Below are positions 1 to 8,899 of a stretch of 8,899 nt of DNA, one piece after another. Numbering within the stretch: the stretch's first letter is position 1; every line of letters starts with the position of its first letter. Under the pieces are notes generated by a model, which saw nothing but the letters and a program-made list of their open reading frames with translations, made no database searches and was not told the DNA's origin. Source of the DNA: Deltaproteobacteria bacterium (GTDB taxonomy: Bacteria; Desulfobacterota_C; Deferrisomatia; Deferrisomatales; JACRMM01); the NCBI GenBank assembly GCA_016218905.1, contig JACRCS010000325.1, forward strand, positions 1-8,899, in the 5' to 3' direction. The position numbers and the translations under genes were made by a program.

Positions 1-227
1 GCCGCGAGGATCGGGGGGCCGGCCGCATCACCGGCCGCAAGGAGCGCCTGGTACGCGGCGGCCCGGGTTTCGGCGGGCGCGGCCCGGCCGAGGAGCGCGA
101 CGAGAGAGCGAACAGCCCGCGTATCCCCCCTCTGCGCCCCCGCTTGCAGCGCGGGAACGTCGGGCGGACCGGGCACTCCGCAGCCGATCGCCAGAAGGAC
201 GAGGACGAGAGCGAGGCGGCGGCTCAT
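1..227 (-). CDS. HEAT-repeat-like lipoprotein, 5' part only (3' end outside window)
   Basis: Reading from the ATG at 227 gives 75 codons open to the window edge, so the gene continues to the left. The protein starts MSRRLALVLVLLAIGC: basic n-region, hydrophobic core, then a plausible lipobox ending at Cys16, which predicts a lipid-anchored envelope protein. After the anchor come alpha-helical segments (about residues 29-46 with RGDTRAVRSLVALLG, and 52-75 with ETRAAAYQALLAAGDAAG), whose spacing of Gly-Asp, Arg-Ala-Val and Leu pairs resembles HEAT or PBS-lyase-type repeats; such repeats normally act as protein-binding scaffolds. The ATG directly follows the TAG of the preceding gene (TAGATG) and has no clear Shine-Dalgarno, so it probably depends on translational coupling. 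The lipoprotein call is firm; the HEAT call is moderate because only one to two repeats are visible. Confidence 0.78.
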   Translation of the reverse strand, partial: MSRRLALVLVLLAIGCGVPGPPDVPALQAGAQRGDTRAVRSLVALLGRAAPAETRAAAYQALLAAGDAAGPPILA

Positions 228-971
228 CTACCAGACCGTGTGCACCGTGATGTCCACGGTCCTCACCACGCCCGTCTCGGGGACGATGACCGCCGAGGGC
301 TCGACCGTGCCCTTGTCGTAGCGGCCGTACAGGTCACCCACCTTGGGCGGACCACCGTACTTGTCCCGGGCACACAGGTAGAAGGTCCCCGCCTTGGGCA
401 GCTTCACCTCGTATCGGCCGTCCGGCCCGGTCCTGGCCGACACGTACTTGGGCCTCTCCGACATCTGCACGTGCTCGTAGAGGTGGACCCGTACTCCCTC
501 CACCGGCTTGCCCTCCGGGTCGGTGACCTGACCAGAGATGGCGGCCTTCCACTCCGCCTCGCTCCCCAGAGACTCCTTCGGGTTCCCCTGCTTGACGTAG
601 GCGAGAATGTTGAAGCTCAGGGGCTTTCCGGCCTCCACGTGGATCCGCACCGGATCGGTCTTGACGTCGCCTTCCCGAACCGGGCCCGTCTCCTCCCCGT
701 TGGTGCGTCTGCGGGCGACGAGAAGGAAGTCGCCGGGCGGAAGCTCAATCGAGAATGCGGCCGTCGGGCCCAGGGGGCCGAGTTGGGTGAAGGGAGGGCC
801 GCGGAGGTCCTCACCGGGCCGGTAGACGTCCACGGTCGCTCCGCTCACGGGCATATAGACCGAGCCGGAGACCCGGGACAGGCCCCCGGAACTGCCCGGC
901 ACATCGGGCGAGGAGGAGCCGCAGCCAGCGGCGACGAGAGCGGCGAGGAAACCAACGTACCGGGGTCGCAT
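228..971 (-). CDS. Two-domain carboxypeptidase-regulatory-like (beta-sandwich) lipoprotein
   Basis: This 247-residue protein begins MRPRYVGFLAALVAAGC, a lipoprotein signal with acylation expected at Cys17. A Ser/Gly/Pro linker (18-30) leads to two repeats resembling the carboxypeptidase regulatory-like, transthyretin-like beta-sandwich: domain 1 about 32-127 (SGSVYMPVSGATVDVY, later LLVARRR and GPVREGD at 96-102) and domain 2 about 144-247 (ISGQVTDPEGKPVEGVRVHLY, FYLCARDKYGGP, GDLYG at 212-216). Its C-terminus (TVDITVHTVW) resembles that of the protein encoded at 5048-6109. It is the fourth member of the paralogous set here but has two domains where the others have three. No catalytic residues are seen, so a structural or binding role in the envelope is inferred. 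The ATG at 971 lies seven bases after the preceding TAG, with AAGGAG at 982-987 ten bases upstream. Confidence 0.9.
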   Translation of the reverse strand: MRPRYVGFLAALVAAGCGSSSPDVPGSSGGLSRVSGSVYMPVSGATVDVYRPGEDLRGPPFTQLGPLGPTAAFSIELPPGDFLLVARRRTNGEETGPVREGDVKTDPVRIHVEAGKPLSFNILAYVKQGNPKESLGSEAEWKAAISGQVTDPEGKPVEGVRVHLYEHVQMSERPKYVSARTGPDGRYEVKLPKAGTFYLCARDKYGGPPKVGDLYGRYDKGTVEPSAVIVPETGVVRTVDITVHTVW

Positions 972-978
972 CAGGGGC

Positions 979-2040
979 CTACTCCTTCGGATTCGTCAGC
1001 GCAGCCGGATCCACCAGAACCAGGTGGATCGGAGCGGAGACGGCGTTGTGGTCCTTGACCACCCCGTCCAGGGTAGAAAGTCCGAATCGTAGCTCCTGGC
1101 CCGGCGCGAACGCCACGTCGTCGGGGTCGAGACCTCGAAGGCGCCGGCTCAGGGTAACACGCCAAGTGCCCCGGCCTCGGCTGCCTCGACCCTCCACTTC
1201 GCTCCGCCCCGAAGGGACCGGTAGGAGCCGAAACGCCGGCGCGAGCGCGCCAGGGGCTGGCGCCGGCGCCTCGAGCGGCGTGTCACCGGGTCCGAACGCG
1301 TTCGGCGCACTCGAAGAGGCACGCAGCGAGTTGGGCGCGAACCACTCTCCGGCACCGTCGCCGAGCCGTCCGGTCGCGGTGAGGCGTGCGTCCTCCGCCA
1401 TACCCCCCACCCGGCCGCGGCCGGAGCGCCAGATCCAGAGATCCAGGGGAGGAGTTCCCGGGGGCGACACCATGACGTAGTCGGCATAGGCTCGTGGCCC
1501 CTCCATCTTCCAGTCGCGGAGGTGACACGCCTGTTCGCAGGAAAACGTCCGGCCCGCCGGCCCCCAAAGGATTCCCAGTCCGTCCTCGCCCTCTCCCAGG
1601 TTCGCGACCCATCGAGCACCGTCCCAACGCCACTGATGCCCCACATCCTCCGTCGGATCCACCCACTCGGCGCGCAGATACAAGCACTCGGCCGTGTAGA
1701 AAGCCCGGACCCGGATGTCTACGGGCGGCGCACCCGTACCGTGGTGACAGGACGCGGTGGCCGTGTGCACCGCATCGGAGTCCACGTCCGCATCCCCGGG
1801 CCGGCTCGTCCTGCCTCCCCTCGCCGTCACGTGCAGTGCAACCGACTCCTCCCACTGGGCCTCCGTCGGGGCCCGGTCCAGCCGCAAGGCGTAGAGGCGG
1901 TCGACCCTCTGCCCGCAACCGATCCCGAGCATCCCGAAAGGGCCGGCGCCGAGCATCGCGAGGCATGTCCAGCGGACGATCCACCGAACCCGACGGCATG
2001 GGTCTCTGCTCCGGATCCCGTCTGAGACGTCGAAGGGCAT
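979..2040 (-). CDS. Exported ethylbenzene-dehydrogenase-type haem-binding domain protein
   Basis: 353 residues from the ATG at 2040. Features typical of the EB_dh family (gamma subunit of ethylbenzene and related DMSO-reductase-family dehydrogenases, and cytochrome-like relatives) appear in order: VRAFYTAECLYLRAEWVDPTED (111-132), EDGLGILW (152-159), FSCEQACH (166-173), a Met at 179, PLDLWIWRSGR (198-208), and a C-terminal LRFGLSTLDG strand region (317-326). C168-x3-C172-H173 is a variant of the CxxCH haem-c motif, so either covalent haem c or a haem b held by Met/His ligands is possible. The N-terminus has an unusually long basic leader before a hydrophobic stretch (about 20-41) ending LGIGC42: a secretion signal, possibly a lipoprotein with a poor lipobox (Gly at -3). 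A Pro/Ala linker (254-269) splits the domain. An upstream in-frame ATG at 2070 is less likely because the strong ribosome-binding site lies downstream of it. Confidence 0.85.
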   Translation of the reverse strand: MPFDVSDGIRSRDPCRRVRWIVRWTCLAMLGAGPFGMLGIGCGQRVDRLYALRLDRAPTEAQWEESVALHVTARGGRTSRPGDADVDSDAVHTATASCHHGTGAPPVDIRVRAFYTAECLYLRAEWVDPTEDVGHQWRWDGARWVANLGEGEDGLGILWGPAGRTFSCEQACHLRDWKMEGPRAYADYVMVSPPGTPPLDLWIWRSGRGRVGGMAEDARLTATGRLGDGAGEWFAPNSLRASSSAPNAFGPGDTPLEAPAPAPGALAPAFRLLPVPSGRSEVEGRGSRGRGTWRVTLSRRLRGLDPDDVAFAPGQELRFGLSTLDGVVKDHNAVSAPIHLVLVDPAALTNPKE

Positions 2041-2044
2041 CAGG

Positions 2045-2947
2045 TCAGTGCCTCCTCCAGTCCGGATCATCCGGAGGCTCGAGGGGGGGAACGTCGATCT
2101 TGGCTGGCCGAGGCAGCATCGGAGCGACAGTGACTCTGCCGAGCGCCGGATCCGAGCGCCGATCGACCACGGCCTCCAGGACTGCCGCCTCGTCTTCCGT
2201 CCCCCAGTAGTTACCCGGGAACGACAGGTCCTCCCGCTGCTCCAGGCCCATCTTCACGGGGGATCCGTTGCGGAGGATATTGTTCTCCCGAAAGACCGTC
2301 TTCCCCCGACACTCAGCAACCGGGAAGATGCCAGTCCCATTGTCGGAGATCTCGTTGGCCACGATCTCCGCAGGATGCCCCCTCTCCTCGAACCGCACAC
2401 CGTTTTGATTCCCGTGGATCCAGCACCCTTCCACTCGAAGGCGGGCCGTTGAAAAGCGAACCCCGTCGACGTTGTGGGCGAACTCGCAGCGGAGGATCCG
2501 GGCAGGACTGTAGTGGACCTGAACCCCGCTGTAGGCGTGGGAAAACCGCGCGTAACCGAGGCTCGCCCCTTCCGCAAAGTTGATCAACAGGTACTTCCAG
2601 TCGGACGGCCGCGGGATCGGCTCTGCCGAGGTGAACAGGATGGGAGCCTCCGCGGTCCCTTCGGCCGTGAGCCGCCCTTCCACCGTGAGCTCCGCATCCC
2701 CGATCCCGTCCCCGTCCCAGTCCACGCGCCGGAAGAAGATCTTCGTCCCCGGAAGGATCCGCAGGTGCCCCCCCCTGCGCACGACGACGATGCGGTCCAC
2801 CGTGATCTCACCTCGCCAGAGCGTGTCTCCGGTAACGGAGGTGATCGGCATCGAGTGGAGGTCACGCCCGAGCGGCCGAGGCGCACATGCCCCCATGAGC
2901 AGGAGGAGTGCACCCGAGGTAATCCCCACGCGGAGCGCCGTCTTCAC
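2045..2947 (-). CDS. Right-handed parallel beta-helix lipoprotein (NosD-like fold)
   Basis: 300 residues. A GTG start at 2947 overlaps the previous stop as GTGA. The signal LLLLMGAC predicts acylation at Cys21. The body shows the short Gly/Asn-rich turns of bacterial parallel beta-helices: LTVEGRLTAEGTAEAPILFTS (87-107), then rungs such as GVQVHYSPARILRCEFAHN, GVRFSTARLRVEGCWIHGN and IVANEISDNGTGI (141-207), closing with NNILRNGSP and NYWG (246-249), a common end-cap sequence in this fold, followed by the usual tail with DRRSDPALGRV. An inserted D76-W-D78-G-D80-G-I-G-D84 loop matches the DxDxDGxxD calcium-binding pattern. Carbohydrate-lyase relatives exist, but no catalytic set is recognisable, so a structural or polysaccharide/protein-binding role in the envelope is as likely. 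The C-terminal tail is Pro/Asp-rich. Confidence 0.9.
   Translation of the reverse strand: MKTALRVGITSGALLLLMGACAPRPLGRDLHSMPITSVTGDTLWRGEITVDRIVVVRRGGHLRILPGTKIFFRRVDWDGDGIGDAELTVEGRLTAEGTAEAPILFTSAEPIPRPSDWKYLLINFAEGASLGYARFSHAYSGVQVHYSPARILRCEFAHNVDGVRFSTARLRVEGCWIHGNQNGVRFEERGHPAEIVANEISDNGTGIFPVAECRGKTVFRENNILRNGSPVKMGLEQREDLSFPGNYWGTEDEAAVLEAVVDRRSDPALGRVTVAPMLPRPAKIDVPPLEPPDDPDWRRH
2051..2058 (-). promoter_or_regulatory. Ribosome-binding site deciding the start at 2040
   Basis: GGAGGAGG in the last codons of the beta-helix gene, ten bases before the ATG at 2040. It is downstream of the alternative ATG at 2070, which therefore lacks a comparable site. Confidence 0.68.
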
Positions 2948-4005
2948 GGCTCGAGCACCTGGCGAACCACGATCGTTACGCCCTGCACGATCCGGCCTTT
3001 CGCCACCTGCAGGGAATGATCCGGAGAACCCTCGTAGAGGCCGAACCGCTCCCCGGGCAGCGGCGACCCCCCGGTTCTCTCTCGCGCCCCTAAGTAGAAG
3101 AGCCCCCCCTCGCCCAGAGGCAGGGCGAAGGTTCCGGCCGGGCCCTTGGAGACGGCGACGAAATCCGGCATGCCGTGACCGATGGTGCGGTCCCGGTAGG
3201 CAAAGACATAGGCGTCGGGAACCGGTCTCCCCCCCTCGTCGAGAACCGAGCCTCGGATTCCCGTGCCGGTGAGAGCGAGCAGATCCTGGCCTGAGTCCTC
3301 CTCCTTCTCCTTGCGAGCCACGTGCAGCGCGAGAACCGCCTCCTCACCCGAATTCACCCGGACGGGATTCGCCGAGGCAACTCCGTACAGATCCCCCTCT
3401 CGCACCGGTCCCAGAGGGGACGAGGCCTCCCTCCGGCGCACCGCGACGTAGTAGGCACCCTCGGGAAGCTCGTCGACGAAGTACGCACCGTCCTGCTGCG
3501 TCGGGAAGGATTGCCGAAAGCCCGGCCCCTTGAGATTCTCGTCCTCATCCAGGTACAGATACACCACCGCACCGACGACCGGCTCGCCCTTCCACAGGAC
3601 CCCGCCGGAGAGGGCTCCGAAGCCGGGCTGCGCTTCGGGCAGGGGCCGGCGCGTCGGCTCCTCCCGAGGAACGGACTGTAGACCGACCCACGCCGAGGCG
3701 CCCGGCGCGAGCCAGAGAGGAGACTTCCCGGCCACGGCGACCAGTGGGAGGGTCCCCTCCGACGCTGCCCGGAGCCGGTAGGCTCCGGGGCGCAGAGGCG
3801 GGAAGGCGTAGCGCCCGTCGTCCCCGGAAACGGTCACTTCCTTGACCCGCCCGCTCCCCTCTTCCACGGTCACCGTGGCGCCCTTCAGGGGGCTGCCGTC
3901 GTGCACCACTCGACCGGCGAGGTGCGCAGGGGCAGCCCCGCACGCGGACAGGAGAACCCCGGCCGCGCAGGGGACCGCGGCACTCGCCAGGAGCCGGCGT
4001 CTCAC
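2944..4005 (-). CDS. Three-domain carboxypeptidase-regulatory-like lipoprotein
   Basis: 353 residues from the GTG at 4005, chosen because it gives a GTGA overlap with the preceding stop, has AAGAGG at 4011-4016 five bases upstream, and opens directly on a lipoprotein signal with the canonical lipobox L-S-A-C22. An ATG at 4074 in the same frame would put 23 Arg/Gly-rich residues before the signal. Three beta-sandwich repeats follow: about 28-113 (LAGRVVHDGSPLKGATVTV, a classical carboxypeptidase-regulatory start), 131-230 (GGVLWKGEPVVGAVVYLYLD, YYVAVRRRE, GPVREGDLYG at 199-208) and 250-353 (GSVLDEGGRPVPDAYVFAY, FYLGARERTGG, GERFGLYEG). A charged linker (KEKEED, 232-237) separates domains 2 and 3. 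An acidic DEDEN patch (153-157) sits in the first loop of domain 2. No enzymatic motif is seen; an envelope structural or binding role is inferred. Confidence 0.9.
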   Translation of the reverse strand: MRRRLLASAAVPCAAGVLLSACGAAPAHLAGRVVHDGSPLKGATVTVEEGSGRVKEVTVSGDDGRYAFPPLRPGAYRLRAASEGTLPLVAVAGKSPLWLAPGASAWVGLQSVPREEPTRRPLPEAQPGFGALSGGVLWKGEPVVGAVVYLYLDEDENLKGPGFRQSFPTQQDGAYFVDELPEGAYYVAVRRREASSPLGPVREGDLYGVASANPVRVNSGEEAVLALHVARKEKEEDSGQDLLALTGTGIRGSVLDEGGRPVPDAYVFAYRDRTIGHGMPDFVAVSKGPAGTFALPLGEGGLFYLGARERTGGSPLPGERFGLYEGSPDHSLQVAKGRIVQGVTIVVRQVLEP

Positions 4006-5051
4006 TTCCGCCTCTTCAACTGAAGCGTGACCTCTGCCGTCCCTCCGGCCGCGGCCGTCCCGTCCGCATACCAATCCCCGTCTCCCAAGGGGCCCCCGAG
4101 CGCCCGACGCGCCCGGAGAAACGCAGGCTGGCCAGGCGGCAACGGCAGGCGGGTCCGCCCCTCCCCGTCGGTGCTTAGGGAGGCCGCCAACGGGGGTCCG
4201 GTGCGCAACGCCGAGCCATAGGCCAGCACATAGTAGCCGGGAGCTGCCTTCCCCGTGGCGTCGACGACCCGCAGCTGAACACCCTGGAAGGCCTGCACGT
4301 CCTCCTCGAGTTGGCTCAACCGCTCGATGAGCGGAATCTCCACCTGTACCTCCTCCCCCTGGGCCACAACCACCGGATTGCGGGGGTAGAAGTTGAAGAG
4401 GTCACCGATCTCGATCGGGCCGTAGGCGCCGCCTCGGGCCCTCTTCCGGGCGACCAGGTAGTAGGTCCCCGGGGGCACCCGCACGCGAAACGAGCCCCGT
4501 GCGACCGGTTGAAGGACCCGGGCAGGCCCGTGGAAGACCGACCCCACCTCGTCGTAGACGTAGAGATAGACCTTCTCCACCTCTCGCCCCTTGGCCGTGA
4601 TCCTGCCCTGAAGCACCGACTGCGCGGCAGCCTTCCGCTCCTCCGCAACCACCTTCACCAGATTCACCCCCACCGCGGTCCACGCGCCCGGCGTTACGGT
4701 GACGGGAGAGCCGGAGTACAGGCAGTGGAGGTCCCCGGTCTCCGGACGCTGCCCTACCAAGCCCTCGCCTTTCTTCAGCGCCTCCACGACGTAGCGCCCT
4801 GACGGGACCGCGGCCTCGTACGCCCCGTCGGTGCCGGTGAGTGCTCGGGCGGCCGGCGCCACGCCAGTGAGGGGACCGAAGGAGCCAGGGCGGTACGGGT
4901 AGACGCGGACCTCCACCCCTTCGACGAGCACCCCTGCGAGGGAGGCCCGCCCCCGAACCCCTTCGGCACTGGACGCCCGCACCGCACCGAACAGCGCGAC
5001 AAGCGAAGCGATCAACACGAACCGGAGAATCACGCTACGTCGACCCGTCAC
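4002..5051 (-). CDS. Three-domain carboxypeptidase-regulatory-like secreted protein (no lipobox)
   Basis: 349 residues. Of three nearby GTG codons (5054, 5051, 5033), 5051 is preferred: it overlaps the previous stop as GTGA and sits seven bases after a GGAGG. The N-terminus is a Sec signal (RRSVILRFVLIASLVALFGAV) with probable type I cleavage after Ala29 (ASSA/EG); unlike its paralogues there is no lipobox cysteine, so the mature protein should be soluble in the periplasm or exported. Repeats: about 32-135 (GRASLAGVLVEGVEVRVYPY, TGDLHCLY), 146-242 (GRITAKGREVEKVYLYVYD, YYLVARKRARGG, GPIEIGDLF at 211-219) and 258-349 (LRVVDATGKAAPGYYVLAY, FLRARRALGGP, GDWY at 325-328). A short Glu/Gln-rich linker (243-257) lies between domains 2 and 3. 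The tail ends in basic KRRK. No catalytic motif; likely a partner of the neighbouring paralogues. Confidence 0.88.
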   Translation of the reverse strand: MTGRRSVILRFVLIASLVALFGAVRASSAEGVRGRASLAGVLVEGVEVRVYPYRPGSFGPLTGVAPAARALTGTDGAYEAAVPSGRYVVEALKKGEGLVGQRPETGDLHCLYSGSPVTVTPGAWTAVGVNLVKVVAEERKAAAQSVLQGRITAKGREVEKVYLYVYDEVGSVFHGPARVLQPVARGSFRVRVPPGTYYLVARKRARGGAYGPIEIGDLFNFYPRNPVVVAQGEEVQVEIPLIERLSQLEEDVQAFQGVQLRVVDATGKAAPGYYVLAYGSALRTGPPLAASLSTDGEGRTRLPLPPGQPAFLRARRALGGPLGDGDWYADGTAAAGGTAEVTLQLKRRK

Positions 5052-6109
5052 CACACCTCCTCCACGGATATCTCGACCCCGCCCACGACTTGCCCCTCTC
5101 GCACCACCAAACCCGCGCCAGTCTCGCCGCGATACGCCCCCACCCGCTCTCCCGGCTCGGCCGGGCCCCCGAGGCGAGACCTCGCCCCTAGATAGTAGGT
5201 TCCCCCGCCGGGCAGGAACAGAGAGAAACGGCCATCGGAACCCGAGGGCGCGCTCAACGCAAGGGGTTTGCCGGCCATGCGGGGATCCCGAAAGGCCAAG
5301 ATCCGAACCCCGTTGACGGGGCGCCCGTCCTCCGCGTGGATCCTGCCCAGGACGGAGGTCGCCGTCCGGGGCGAACCTCTCGTCATGTGCTGACGAACGG
5401 TCCGATCGACCGGGTGGAGACGCAGGGATCCCGCATCGGAGTACCGGCCGGCGGCAACCTCGACCGGCACGGCGGCGGTCCGGTCGCCTGGGGTAAGATC
5501 GCCGGAGTCGTCCCCCGAAGCCCGCCATCGGGCGGCCACCGTGTATGTCCCCGGCTTCAGATCCAGGCGGAACGATCCGTCGGACGCCGTCGGTTTTGCC
5601 GCCACAAACCCGGGGCCCGTCGGACGCTCGGCGCGACCGGGGTAGGCATACACCACGACCTTTCCCTTCCCGCCGCGTCCTACCTCCACCTTCCCCATGA
5701 CACCGGCCCCCGGGGTGCCTGCCGAAGACGAGAAGCCCGAGGGGTCGGAGAGAGAGACTTCCCCCCGGATCGTTCGGCCGGCGATGACGTCCAGGGGGGT
5801 CGGCCTCGCCTGGCCCACCAGACGAGCGCCCCGGCCTCCGGTCTCCACCGTGGCGCGGGCCCATACCCAATACCTGCCGGGCGGTAGCTCGATCCGAAAC
5901 GACCCGTCCGAGCCCGTCGCGGCCTCCGCCGCCGGCGGCACCGAGGGATCCTGTTCCGCCTTCGGATAGGCCCCGACGAGGGCGGCCGCAATCCCCTTGC
6001 CCTCCCAAATCACTCGTCCCTCGATCGTTCCGCCCTTCGGAGACGGGGAGCAGCCCCCGCCGATGACCGCAAGGAGGACGGCACCGGCCCAGACCGCGAC
6101 AGGCCCCAT
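5048..6109 (-). CDS. Three-domain carboxypeptidase-regulatory-like probable lipoprotein
   Basis: 353 residues from the ATG at 6109. The frame is open further upstream to 6469, but that extension overlaps the preceding gene's coding region, and 6109 has GGAGG seven bases upstream plus a TGATG stop/start overlap. The signal MGPVAVWAGAVLLAVIGGGC suggests acylation at Cys20, although Gly at -3 makes a weak lipobox. Three beta-sandwich repeats: about 28-122 (IEGRVIWEGKGIAAALVGAY, SDGSFRIELPPGRYWVWARA), 136-235 (GKVEVGRGGKGKVVVYAYP, GPGF, SDGSFRLDLKPGTYTVAARW, LTPGDR) and 252-353 (GRIHAEDGRPVNGVRILAF, YYLGARSRLGGP, GERVGAYRG). A Ser/Gly linker (124-136) separates the first two. The first domain lacks the GD-x-Y signature present in most paralogous domains. 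No enzymatic motif is seen; role inferred as envelope structural or binding. Confidence 0.9.
   Translation of the reverse strand: MGPVAVWAGAVLLAVIGGGCSPSPKGGTIEGRVIWEGKGIAAALVGAYPKAEQDPSVPPAAEAATGSDGSFRIELPPGRYWVWARATVETGGRGARLVGQARPTPLDVIAGRTIRGEVSLSDPSGFSSSAGTPGAGVMGKVEVGRGGKGKVVVYAYPGRAERPTGPGFVAAKPTASDGSFRLDLKPGTYTVAARWRASGDDSGDLTPGDRTAAVPVEVAAGRYSDAGSLRLHPVDRTVRQHMTRGSPRTATSVLGRIHAEDGRPVNGVRILAFRDPRMAGKPLALSAPSGSDGRFSLFLPGGGTYYLGARSRLGGPAEPGERVGAYRGETGAGLVVREGQVVGGVEISVEEVW
5056..5063 (-). promoter_or_regulatory. Ribosome-binding site deciding the start at 5051
   Basis: GGAGGAGG. Its first GGAGG is seven bases from the GTG at 5051 and four from the GTG at 5054, so 5051 is the better start. 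Confidence 0.68.
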
Positions 6110-8523
6110 CAAACCGCCTCCACCGGGAGCGCCCTCACCACCAACAACGCAGCCCCATAGAGTCCGGCACCGACCGAAAGCGTCGCCGTATACCCGAAGT
6201 TCATCGCGACCAGCACGGAACCGAGGGACCCCAGGACGCTTGCCGCCCCATTGACGGCCCACGCCCACGGGACCAGCTCTCGGGAGCGCGCGCCCAGGAG
6301 CGCGATGGCGCCGGGAAACGGAACCCCGAGGGTGAAGGCCAGCGGCAGGAGCAGACCGGTGGCCACAGTCCACCGCAAGGCATCGGGAAGAGGGAGCGCC
6401 GCAGTGAGGAGCCTGGGGACTACGAGCGCTTGGAGGAGTCCCAACGCCGCTGCACTCAGCAGGACCCACTGAAGGCGCGTTCGGGTGCTCGCGACAGATC
6501 CGGATACCAGGCTCCCCGCGCCGCCCCCGAGCAAGAAGGCGAAGAGGGTAGCAGTCGCCGCGTAGACCGGGTGGCCGAGGAAGAGGGAGAGCCGCTTCAT
6601 GGTTCCGATCTCCAGGGCCATATACCCGAGCCCCACCAGGGCAGCATAGGAGAGAGTCGCCGCAGATCGGGTTCCAGCCCCGGGCAGGACACGCACCATC
6701 ACGAGGGGCGCGAGAAGGGCCGTGACCGTCAGGACCGCCAGAATTCCGAAGGCGGCCCGCAGAATCTCCGCCCCGCGGTCGTCAAACCCCACCCGGTGGG
6801 GCAGATGGCCGCGCAGAAAGTCCCACGGACGCACCGTGTAGTAGAAGAACGGGCGGTCGTCGGTGGGAGGAGAAACGTCGAAGGGAAGACCCACCAGGGC
6901 CTCGTTGAGGGTCGGCGCGTCGAGAAGCCGCGACAAGGCGGTCTCCCCCCCAGGCGACGGGTAGACGAACGAGAAGCTCAACTCCCTCGCGAGCGCGGCC
7001 AGCCGCGCATCATCCGCCGGTGTGAAGGGCGCCTTGCACACGAGGACGTTCGCGAGCCCCCGATCGGAGACGACTCGGACGTGGGCACCGGGCCGAGAAA
7101 CACCTTCTCGGTCGAGCAGCGCCCGCGCCAGAGCGGTGAGCCTCAGGGCGCGCTGCTCGTAGCTGAAGCGACTCAGCGAAAGGATTCCGTTCGGAGACAG
7201 GCGCCGCCAGTAGTCTTGAAACGCCTCGACCGTGTGAAGAAGATCTTCGGAAAGGGTGAAGGCTCCGGCCGCCGGCGGAAGACGCCCGAAAAGCGCCGAT
7301 GCCTCCACCACGTCGTAGGTCTCCGTATCCAGGGCCGCGAACCTGCGACCGTCTCCCACCGACAGGTCGACACGGGGATCGGAGTAAGGTCTGCCCGTGA
7401 ACCCCTGAAAGGTCTCCTGGACCATTTCGACCACCTGGGGGTTGATCTCGACCGCCCTCACCTGGGCCCCCGGGAAGGAGAGCGCGATCCACACGTCCTT
7501 GCCCCCCCCGGGACCGAGGATGAGGGCTCGGGGCCGTGGGCGCAACTGGTAGGCGAGTGCCACGAGATTCGACCGAAAGTACTCCGGAGTGGCTCGCGAC
7601 ACGCGGCCGTCGTAGAGATTCGTGTATCCCGAATCGTCGACGACGAGGCCGACCTGGTCCGGCGTGGGCCCGGAATAGGACCGGGAGAGACCGAAGGCCC
7701 TACCGAGCTCACCCGCAGGAAGTGGAAACGCGGCGACCCGACTCATGGTGTTCCAGCGCACGGCAAGAAAGCGAGGCTCGTAGAGCCCGCGCGCAAAGGG
7801 GACCTCAGCCCCTCCGGAGACATGGGCCCACGCCCCCACCCCCAGCGCCAGCGCTGCGAGCACCAGCGAGACTCTCCGCAGCCCGGGCCCTGCGGCGAGA
7901 TCCCTCGCCCCGAGAAATCCCAAGAGAGCGGCCGCGCACAAGGCGGCGGGAGCGGACACGCGGCCCAGGAGCAAGGGGAGAGCGAGGCAGCCGACGGCCG
8001 AGCCGAGAAACGTGGCGGCGTAAGGTGCCTGGACGCGCGGAGCGGCCTGGACGAGGAGGCCGGCCGTCGCCACTCCGGCGGAGAAGAACGGAAGCCCTGC
8101 CACGCAGGCCAGTGCTCCAAGCCGAAGCCCGAAGCTCGCTGCCATCCCCGACCCCCGGGACCGGGAAAAGGGCTCGTAGAATGGCTGATGAAACGGAGCC
8201 AGCGTCGCCCGCGCCACGGCGGGGTCTGCCCTCACCCATGCCATGAAGGCGAGGAGCACCAGCACCGCGACGCCAAACCCCGCCGCCCACCAGCCCGGGG
8301 CCCTGCCCTGGCCCGTCCCGGGAACGCACCCCACGACCACACCGCCCGCTCCGAGGCCCAAGAGGGCCAGCGCAATGGCGAGGCTGGCAAAGTGGTACCA
8401 CATCATCACGGAGAAGACGCGCATCAGCAGCAGTTCGTAAAGGAGAACTCCCGCCGACAGAAGGAAGAGCCCCCGGAGCTTCCCGAACGCAACCCCGCGG
8501 ACCTTTGGCGACGCGAAACCCAC
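6109..8523 (-). CDS. Membrane-fused spermidine-synthase-like protein
   Basis: 804 residues, GTG start at 8523 (first start in an otherwise long open frame; GAGGAG nine bases upstream). Architecture: an N-terminal multi-pass membrane region (about 16-232), a soluble spermidine-synthase/methyltransferase-like Rossmann domain (about 250-590), and a C-terminal multi-pass region (about 600-804). Family marks are WNTMSRVAAF (257-266), a glycine-rich nucleotide loop ILGPGGGKD (335-343), acidic E359 in VEIN, GDGRRF (390-395) and the AFTLSEDLLHTVEAF segment (421-435). Authentic SpeE has a catalytic DSTD-like motif after YDV; here the equivalent stretch reads YDVVEASALFG, so spermidine synthesis is unlikely. 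A modified decarboxy-SAM or SAM-binding transferase, or a transporter-like role, is possible; no substrate can be named. It is the first gene of the probable operon and the only one without a cleavable export signal. Confidence 0.92.
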   Translation of the reverse strand: MGFASPKVRGVAFGKLRGLFLLSAGVLLYELLLMRVFSVMMWYHFASLAIALALLGLGAGGVVVGCVPGTGQGRAPGWWAAGFGVAVLVLLAFMAWVRADPAVARATLAPFHQPFYEPFSRSRGSGMAASFGLRLGALACVAGLPFFSAGVATAGLLVQAAPRVQAPYAATFLGSAVGCLALPLLLGRVSAPAALCAAALLGFLGARDLAAGPGLRRVSLVLAALALGVGAWAHVSGGAEVPFARGLYEPRFLAVRWNTMSRVAAFPLPAGELGRAFGLSRSYSGPTPDQVGLVVDDSGYTNLYDGRVSRATPEYFRSNLVALAYQLRPRPRALILGPGGGKDVWIALSFPGAQVRAVEINPQVVEMVQETFQGFTGRPYSDPRVDLSVGDGRRFAALDTETYDVVEASALFGRLPPAAGAFTLSEDLLHTVEAFQDYWRRLSPNGILSLSRFSYEQRALRLTALARALLDREGVSRPGAHVRVVSDRGLANVLVCKAPFTPADDARLAALARELSFSFVYPSPGGETALSRLLDAPTLNEALVGLPFDVSPPTDDRPFFYYTVRPWDFLRGHLPHRVGFDDRGAEILRAAFGILAVLTVTALLAPLVMVRVLPGAGTRSAATLSYAALVGLGYMALEIGTMKRLSLFLGHPVYAATATLFAFLLGGGAGSLVSGSVASTRTRLQWVLLSAAALGLLQALVVPRLLTAALPLPDALRWTVATGLLLPLAFTLGVPFPGAIALLGARSRELVPWAWAVNGAASVLGSLGSVLVAMNFGYTATLSVGAGLYGAALLVVRALPVEAV
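6117..6121 (-). promoter_or_regulatory. Ribosome-binding site deciding the start at 6109
   Basis: GGAGG seven bases before the ATG at 6109. It lies inside the end of the preceding coding region and rules in favour of this start over longer in-frame extensions. Confidence 0.78.
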
Positions 8524-8667: not shown

Positions 8668-8899
8668 CTAGCGCTTCGCGACACCAATGGGCTCCGCCAC
8701 TGTCAGGACGCGGCCGGGTCGTACCCCCTCGATCACCCGGCGTGTGCCGCTGGGAAAACGAACCTCCACCGTGTACGTCTTGGTCGCGTCCAGCCCGAAG
8801 TGAAGCTCCTGCGGAGGCTGCGACACGAACCCCGAGCTCGTCTGCAGATCCCCCATCCCCGCCAGCCGTTTCCCCTCCCGCACCCACACCCGGGACCCC
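8668..8899 (-). CDS. ASPIC/UnbV-domain protein, C-terminal end only (5' end outside window)
   Basis: The frame is open from the right edge to a TAG at 8668-8670, giving the last 76 or so residues. The visible part matches the ASPIC/UnbV C-terminal module usually placed after FG-GAP/VCBS propeller repeats in CRTAC1-like extracellular proteins: RVWVREGKRLAG, LQTSSGFVSQ, LHFGLDATKTYTVEVRFPSG (a typical landmark is HFGLG...VEVRWPSG) and VLTVAEP. The propeller part would lie upstream, outside the window. The internal GTG at 8889 is not a credible start because conserved sequence is already in progress there. The gene is separated from the downstream operon by 144 bases with a terminator-like hairpin, so it probably belongs to another transcription unit. 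Confidence 0.85.
   Translation of the reverse strand, partial: GSRVWVREGKRLAGMGDLQTSSGFVSQPPQELHFGLDATKTYTVEVRFPSGTRRVIEGVRPGRVLTVAEPIGVAKR

Follow-up and report, generated by a model that had tools for sequence, protein, structure and literature searches.

Several described protein families come close to the genes reported here: the transthyretin-like, carboxypeptidase-regulatory family (CarboxypepD_reg, PF13620), the gamma subunits of ethylbenzene dehydrogenase and of type II dimethyl sulfoxide (DMSO) reductases, the NapGH/NosR/MauMN group and the beta-helix protein NosD. We analyzed an 8,899-nt stretch of DNA, called the window throughout (contig JACRCS010000325.1 of assembly GCA_016218905.1, from a Deltaproteobacteria bacterium of the Deferrisomatales), in which four PF13620 paralogs, A, B, C and D, are encoded together with a haem-domain protein (EBdh) and a right-handed beta-helix protein (h4). 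Unlike generic members of the PF13620 family, A–D carry an additional Arg...G[DE] signature in the second half of the domain, have no peptidase domain, and are tandem exported proteins within a redox cluster.

Comparison with relatives shows that the A–B–C–D gene set is larger than the window and comprises at least fifteen conserved families arranged in modules. We tentatively favor the view that the window holds the larger part of two modules from a conserved set that may build a lipoprotein-anchored electron-transfer assembly in the cell envelope, with A–D as its predicted scaffold. The features of the window, in order of transcription, are as follows.

8668..8898, minus strand: C-terminus of an FG-GAP/ASPIC-UnbV beta-propeller protein (PF07593, 45.6 bits, cut-off 23.4); the window end cuts the gene.
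6109..8523, minus strand: SpdS, membrane protein with a spermidine-synthase-like Rossmann domain (PF01564, 25.2 bits, cut-off 22.9), first gene of module M1.
5048..6109, minus strand: A, lipoprotein with three transthyretin-like (PF13620) domains (63.4 bits; lipobox GGGC).
4002..5051, minus strand: B, exported protein with three PF13620 domains (36.6 bits; signal peptide without lipobox).
2944..4005, minus strand: C, lipoprotein with three PF13620 domains (77.3 bits; lipobox LSAC).
2045..2947, minus strand: h4, right-handed beta-helix (NosD-like) lipoprotein (PF13229, 33.3 bits; PF05048, 30.4 bits; lipobox-like sequence).
979..2070, minus strand: EBdh, probable lipoprotein with a haem domain like that of ethylbenzene dehydrogenase gamma; it opens module M2.
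1738..1752, minus strand: SCHHG motif of EBdh (residues 107–111), candidate haem or metal ligands.
1522..1539, minus strand: CX3CH motif of EBdh (residues 178–183), candidate covalent haem attachment.
228..971, minus strand: D, lipoprotein with two PF13620 domains (38.0 bits; lipobox AAGC).
438..491, minus strand: D stretch R161–S178 (RVHxYxHxQMSERPKxVS), from the ortholog alignment.
1..227, minus strand: N-terminus of a HEAT-repeat lipoprotein (lipobox AIGC; HEAT assigned by a relative), third gene of M2; the window end cuts the gene.

The nine frames are tightly packed. From SpdS through A, B, C and h4 to EBdh, consecutive genes overlap by 1, 4, 4, 4 and 26 nt; 7 nt separate EBdh from D and 144 nt separate the FG-GAP/ASPIC-UnbV gene from SpdS. 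GC content at third codon positions lies between 0.78 and 0.87 in all nine. The Pfam scan covered the eight window proteins other than the HEAT fragment, which was identified through its relative L002:13877-14887 (PF13646 HEAT_2, 76 bits).

The initial annotation had described four repeat-built paralogs with eleven domains in one operon, and the reading frames bear this out: all four lie on the minus strand, carry 3, 3, 3 and 2 domains, and score above the PF13620 gathering score of 32.3. It had also noted a GD-x-Y motif in the second half of the domain that the generic family would not explain. We find that this motif forms one half of a pair, in which an Arg of the xxAR strand is followed 11 or 15 residues on by Asp or Glu. 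G[DE] is present in the second half of nine of the eleven domains and is accompanied by the Arg in eight (A2, A3, B2, B3, C2, C3, D1 and D2); B1 has GDL without the Arg, and A1 and C1 have neither element. Both residues are invariant in ortholog alignments of A2 (R194/D209; 17 sequences, the window's included here and below), A3 (R310/E321; 17), B2 (R202/D217; 19), C2 (R190/D205; 23), C3 (R308/E319; 23) and D1 (R87/D102; 20). For D2, R202 is invariant and D213 nearly so, and the B3 pair is seen in the window sequence.

A strict version of the signature matched 6/11 window domains and 0/27 generic PF13620 copies (p 0.0002), and a loose version 8/11 and 6/27 (p 0.008); these p-values flatter the contrast, because the patterns were composed with the window domains in view. 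The generic copies came from the same phylum (30, less three at contig edges), and A2, mis-sliced by the pattern script, was scored as a miss. The strict count shows that PF13620 domains do not in general carry the signature. Each paralog also has invariant residues of its own, D being the most conserved: in its R161–S178 stretch, R161, H163, Y165, H167, QMSERPK and VS are identical in 20/20 sequences. Structures were predicted with AlphaFold2 for C and EBdh, the model of C having a mean predicted local distance difference test (pLDDT) score of 87.8. Among the Pfam hits of A–D up to an E-value of 1 there was no peptidase family, and no M14 catalytic domain was found; a role as metallopeptidase accessory was rejected, as A–D have no peptidase domain.

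The module structure became apparent from searches with profiles of C and D. The C profile recovered 26 loci, including Deferrisomatales, Desulfuromonadales/Desulfuromonas, Geothermobacter hydrogeniphilus and Deltaproteobacteria, and one weak match in Clostridia. Seventeen of the 26 have all of A, B and C complete, in this order. SpdS lies upstream in 15 of these 17 (L009 is cut and L014 has no SpdS), and h4 follows C in 14 (L006 and L014 have no h4, and L015 is cut). Two extra beta-helix genes are interspersed between A, B and C in the Desulfuromonadales, giving for M1 the order SpdS–A–(helix)–B–(helix)–C–helix.

Orthologs of D at E < 1e-80 were found in 20 of the 24 genomes that lie behind 25 of the 26 C loci (L026 excluded; one genome contributes both L007 and L020), and G013 carries a fragment that lies at the edge of a contig. 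The neighbors of D are constant: a HEAT protein in 20/20 loci, EBdh in 19/20 and a NapH-like Fer4_5 protein in 18/20, every miss coinciding with a contig end; the Fer4_5 domain itself was verified in two of the neighboring proteins. M2 thus reads EBdh–D–HEAT–NapH-like. It stands beside M1 on the opposite strand in L001, L002 and L012 and on another contig in many genomes. The assignment of D to the A–B–C operon holds in the window but not in general. At L017:15477-15797 there is a D-like fragment of 106 residues beside HEAT, 80% identical to D; the same genome has a full-length D on another contig (L031).

A third module, M3, contains a fifth paralog, E. Its order is permease–E–helix/propeller–OpuAC–DUF362–polyferredoxin, and its content is an ArsP_1-type permease, ASPIC, E, a fusion of a beta-helix with a BamB-like propeller, DUF3467, OpuAC, DUF362 and a polyferredoxin in which a NapH-like part is joined to a NapG-like part; it recurs with some members missing. 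An ArsP_1/SaoE-like permease heads the module in several loci (L005:43-999, L080:8812-9771). Other genomes keep the set with the haem-domain and beta-helix genes, the gene clusters being conserved as modules. Neither outcome that the initial annotation had named as refuting it was observed, whether a signature shared by all carboxypeptidase-regulatory domains or a gene set not conserved as a cluster.

The paralogs are old. Phylogenetic analysis of 80 relatives placed each of A (15), B (15), C (17) and D (15) on one side of a single branch, with an ultrafast bootstrap of 100 and a Shimodaira–Hasegawa-like approximate likelihood ratio test (SH-aLRT) value of 98–100 (A 100/98, B 100/100, C 100/99), and these branches were recovered in all 200 bootstrap trees. 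The initial annotation had seen non-equivalent variants kept in one operon. Their distinctness is indeed ancient (100% ultrafast bootstrap each), and the A–B–C operon does not in general include D, which belongs to the separate M2. The multi-subunit assembly with non-equivalent positions that had been predicted on this ground is made more likely.

We then considered whether the modules are inherited together. Most of the genome searches scored the best 8–19 candidates per genome, so that weak extra copies may be missed, and where a genome has one C match, near 1e-81 to 1e-86 (e.g. G024, G332), this may be A. Among 247 genomes of the phylum of G012, D is present in 15 (E-value up to 1e-50). At E-values up to 1e-80, 13 of those 15 have C and B, 13 have EBdh and 14 have paralog E, and none of these occurs in the other 232. 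At looser thresholds, C and B are found in 17 of the 247 (adding G048 and G174), E-like proteins in 18 (G086 too) and EBdh-like proteins in 15; G161 and G251 then have EBdh without D, and G050 and G223 D without EBdh. Within the Geothermobacter order, 44 of 136 genomes have D and 44 have C, 40 having both and 88 neither (p 3e-25). C and D share a contig in 11 of the 40, nine pairs lying 9.2–11.5 kb apart and two at 96 kb and 1.6 Mb. In a second phylum, that of G018 and distinct from that of G012, nine of 12 genomes have D and six have C (E-value up to 1e-60), all six with D as well.

Such patterns could in principle come from an ordinary lineage-specific expansion of PF13620 lipoproteins that were inherited together by chance and have no joint function. 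PF13620 proteins are common (at least one match in 44/59 phylum genomes), and the p-values above overstate independence because the genomes share ancestry. We nevertheless hold this explanation to be very unlikely: within the modules the gene order is constant, each position corresponds to one tree group, and the presence of the set is patchy yet joint, both in the order and in the second phylum, which argues for joint function.

The nature of that function is suggested first by EBdh, which scores above the gathering cut-off of 33.3 for the EB_dh family (PF09459) and has the gamma-subunit fold. Compared with ethylbenzene dehydrogenase gamma (2ivf_C) and NXR-C (7b04_C), it has two added motifs. 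SCHHG is invariant in 31/31 aligned sequences, the window's included, as are both Cys and the His of CX3CH; CX3CH and CHHG occur together in EBdh of 19/20 D loci, the 20th being cut at a contig end. CX3CH can carry haem, and as far as the sequence allows, this motif is a candidate c-type haem attachment site. EBdh is probably a lipoprotein, since a Cys after the hydrophobic stretch is conserved in at least 90% of the 31 sequences; the box in the window, GIGC, is atypical. M190 (P0165 numbering) is invariant near the position of NXR-C Met155, Lys305 lying outside the aligned part. Met and Lys are the axial haem b ligands in gamma subunits of type II DMSO reductases (NXR-C; PMC8387239). Unlike those subunits, EBdh stays below the cut-off of the curated gamma-subunit model DMSO_red_II_gam (NCBIfam TIGR03477), scoring 22 bits in the window and 26.3 in L002, against 169.85. 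The scan of eight window proteins turned up no molybdopterin alpha or iron-sulfur beta subunit, the flanks of the relatives being only partly annotated. In a second-phylum genome, a sigma-54 response regulator, a histidine kinase and a ResB-like gene lie directly upstream of EBdh–D (L075:11171-15346).

The EBdh motifs, together with the NapH/NapG-like iron-sulfur proteins in M2 and M3 of relatives, are the basis of the electron-transfer reading. The likeness to NapGH/NosR/MauMN resides in the M3 polyferredoxin and the M2 Fer4_5 membrane protein; these proteins stay below all curated cut-offs (for the NapH model TIGR02163, cut-off 213.05, the L002 M2 protein reaches 31 bits and the L016 M3 polyferredoxin 54.3), and no NapA, NosZ or MADH is present among the proteins annotated. 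In the scheme we envisage, quinol would be oxidized by the NapH/NapG-like proteins of M2 and M3, and electrons would then pass to the EBdh haem(s) and to iron-sulfur and DUF362 proteins with predicted Tat export. These carriers would be fixed in non-equivalent positions, facing the outer membrane, by the transthyretin-like and beta-helix lipoproteins, and an acceptor there would take the electrons over. The Arg–Asp/Glu pair may form a salt bridge that shapes a loop for inter-subunit contacts. Redox function, contacts and acceptor are all predicted.

A–D could instead make up a stalk, pilus or coat, an adhesive or surface-layer-like shell with no part in electron transfer, the redox genes being neighbors with other tasks. 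Tandem transthyretin/CNA-B domains are known from TIE, shaft pilins and SlaB, although TM-scores of only ~0.2 mean that the plan is shared and not the arrangement, and folds such as FG-GAP/ASPIC, beta-helix and HEAT repeats often serve as scaffolds. We consider such a shell distinctly unlikely, given that EBdh with its invariant motifs is flanked in the window by h4 and D, that it comes before D in 19/20 loci, that a Fer4_5 protein follows in 18/20, and that a search of A, B, C and D for the LPXTG sorting motif of sortase-assembled shaft pilins found none.

Several observations weigh against electron transfer and keep our preference for it tentative. Canonical CXXCH is absent from EBdh, and the motif blocks of its AlphaFold2 model have low confidence (means of 42 for SCHHG, 67 and 47 for CX3CH). 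There is no catalytic oxidoreductase among the eight window proteins scanned, the NapH-like gene and M3 are not in the window and were seen in relatives only, and transthyretin-like folds are widespread and alone give no indication of function. The ArsP_1 permease, OpuAC, DUF362 and SpdS are unaccounted for by a pure electron-transfer role. G050 carries most of the set in one stretch, with D, E, B- and C-like genes and the polyferredoxin; it has no EBdh at E-values up to 1e-20, and the stretches read contain no SpdS; EBdh may thus be dispensable. Finally, 29 of the 40 order genomes that have both C and D carry them on different contigs, and because they are split or distant in many genomes the modules are not always adjacent.

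A further explanation is that these genes encode machinery for maturing or assembling a client, a metal or haem protein encoded elsewhere, with NosD-like helices, a NapH/NosR-like donor and binding proteins loading or protecting it and A–E acting as chaperone-like assembly factors. We regard this as rather unlikely. The joint occurrence of NosD-like helices with a NosR/NapH-like polyferredoxin speaks for it, as does the fusion of a BamB-like propeller to a NosD-like helix in M3. So does domain 1 of C, whose tied best structural matches include the small chain of a multihaem enzyme complex (6hif), which we take to be an assembly factor. This chain Y of Kuenenia hydrazine dehydrogenase has the same single-domain fold, with 28% identity over 81 residues, and is first among the matches listed, in a tie with other transthyretin-like entries that lie within 1 Z of it; the matches were re-examined from Foldseek lists, and families outside these may match as well. 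Unlike C, chain Y is one 86-residue domain within an octahaem enzyme complex, and no such enzyme is present in this set. On the other side, the modules contain no constant client gene as far as annotated, and although right-handed beta-helix repeats are shared with NosD, the curated NosD model TIGR04247 (cut-off 300) gives 20.4 bits for the window helix and 70.9 for L016 helix h2. Maturation of nitrous oxide reductase as such was rejected, given these scores and the absence of NosZ among the eight window proteins scanned, which include no NosFY either.

More distant PF13620-like proteins also count in favor of the maturation hypothesis, with a caveat on selection. Open reading frames with at least 20 CXXCH motifs occur in 5/40 paralog loci (L086 27, L093 35, L101 26, L112 87, L113 33), and in each a PF13620-like protein (225–285 residues; that of L101 is cut) precedes the giant multihaem cytochrome; three further loci of the 40 (L089, L095, L114) have a frame with 10–19. 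In the tree, these five neighbors plus L087 and L020 were labeled group M. Six of the seven cluster (100/99), five of the six beside a giant multihaem cytochrome, a grouping that is a lead and not a test because the loci were selected (5/40) and labeled by that neighbor. L020 falls inside E, so that E and M need two changes each, and M groups weakly with D (90/70, midpoint root). A gene-for-gene link with multihaem cytochromes was not found for A–D. A 2089-residue frame with 87 CXXCH at L150:11255-17524 (plus strand) directly follows a PF13620-like protein (L150:10187-11044) in G006, a carrier of the set (locus L006, Desulfuromonadaceae bacterium UBA6124).

Turning to the remaining genes, SpdS has 10 hydrophobic segments and is doubtful as an active spermidine synthase: it scores 21 bits against 249.55 with the curated model TIGR00417, and its catalytic segment is replaced. 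The catalytic Asp segment of canonical spermidine synthases is of the DPxGP type; such a segment is absent here, and the region reads ASA(V/L)FGR in 15/15 aligned sequences, the window's included. From its sequence SpdS is possibly a pseudoenzyme or another transferase. The propeller gene has a full-length relative directly before SpdS in L002 (L002:3793-5256), with both FG-GAP repeats and UnbV_ASPIC, and at L002:1967-3517, upstream of ASPIC–SpdS–A–B–C, lies an alginate-export-like outer-membrane beta-barrel.

The initial annotation knew of no described system of this composition, and our literature search on the set, its parts, related organisms and NXR likewise found no description of this gene set. 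The composition appears new, every fold in it being already known; a role as cytochrome-assembly helper, if proven, would lower that novelty. The set might even represent a new type of conduit, in which a preorganized lattice, anchored by lipid and made up of five transthyretin-like proteins in non-equivalent roles with as many as four beta-helices, would hold single- or double-haem and iron-sulfur carriers in place between the quinone pool and the outer surface, an idea that we think unlikely as it stands. Multihaem cytochrome wires are known from metal-reducing bacteria, and such a lattice would differ from them. For the family, four vague 'carboxypeptidase regulatory-like' annotations give way to defined positions (A, B, C and D), each with invariant residues specific to its family. 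For the organisms, whose lineages are ones studied for extracellular respiration, the set may represent an unrecognized respiratory or electron-export route, as several of its members look like redox proteins.

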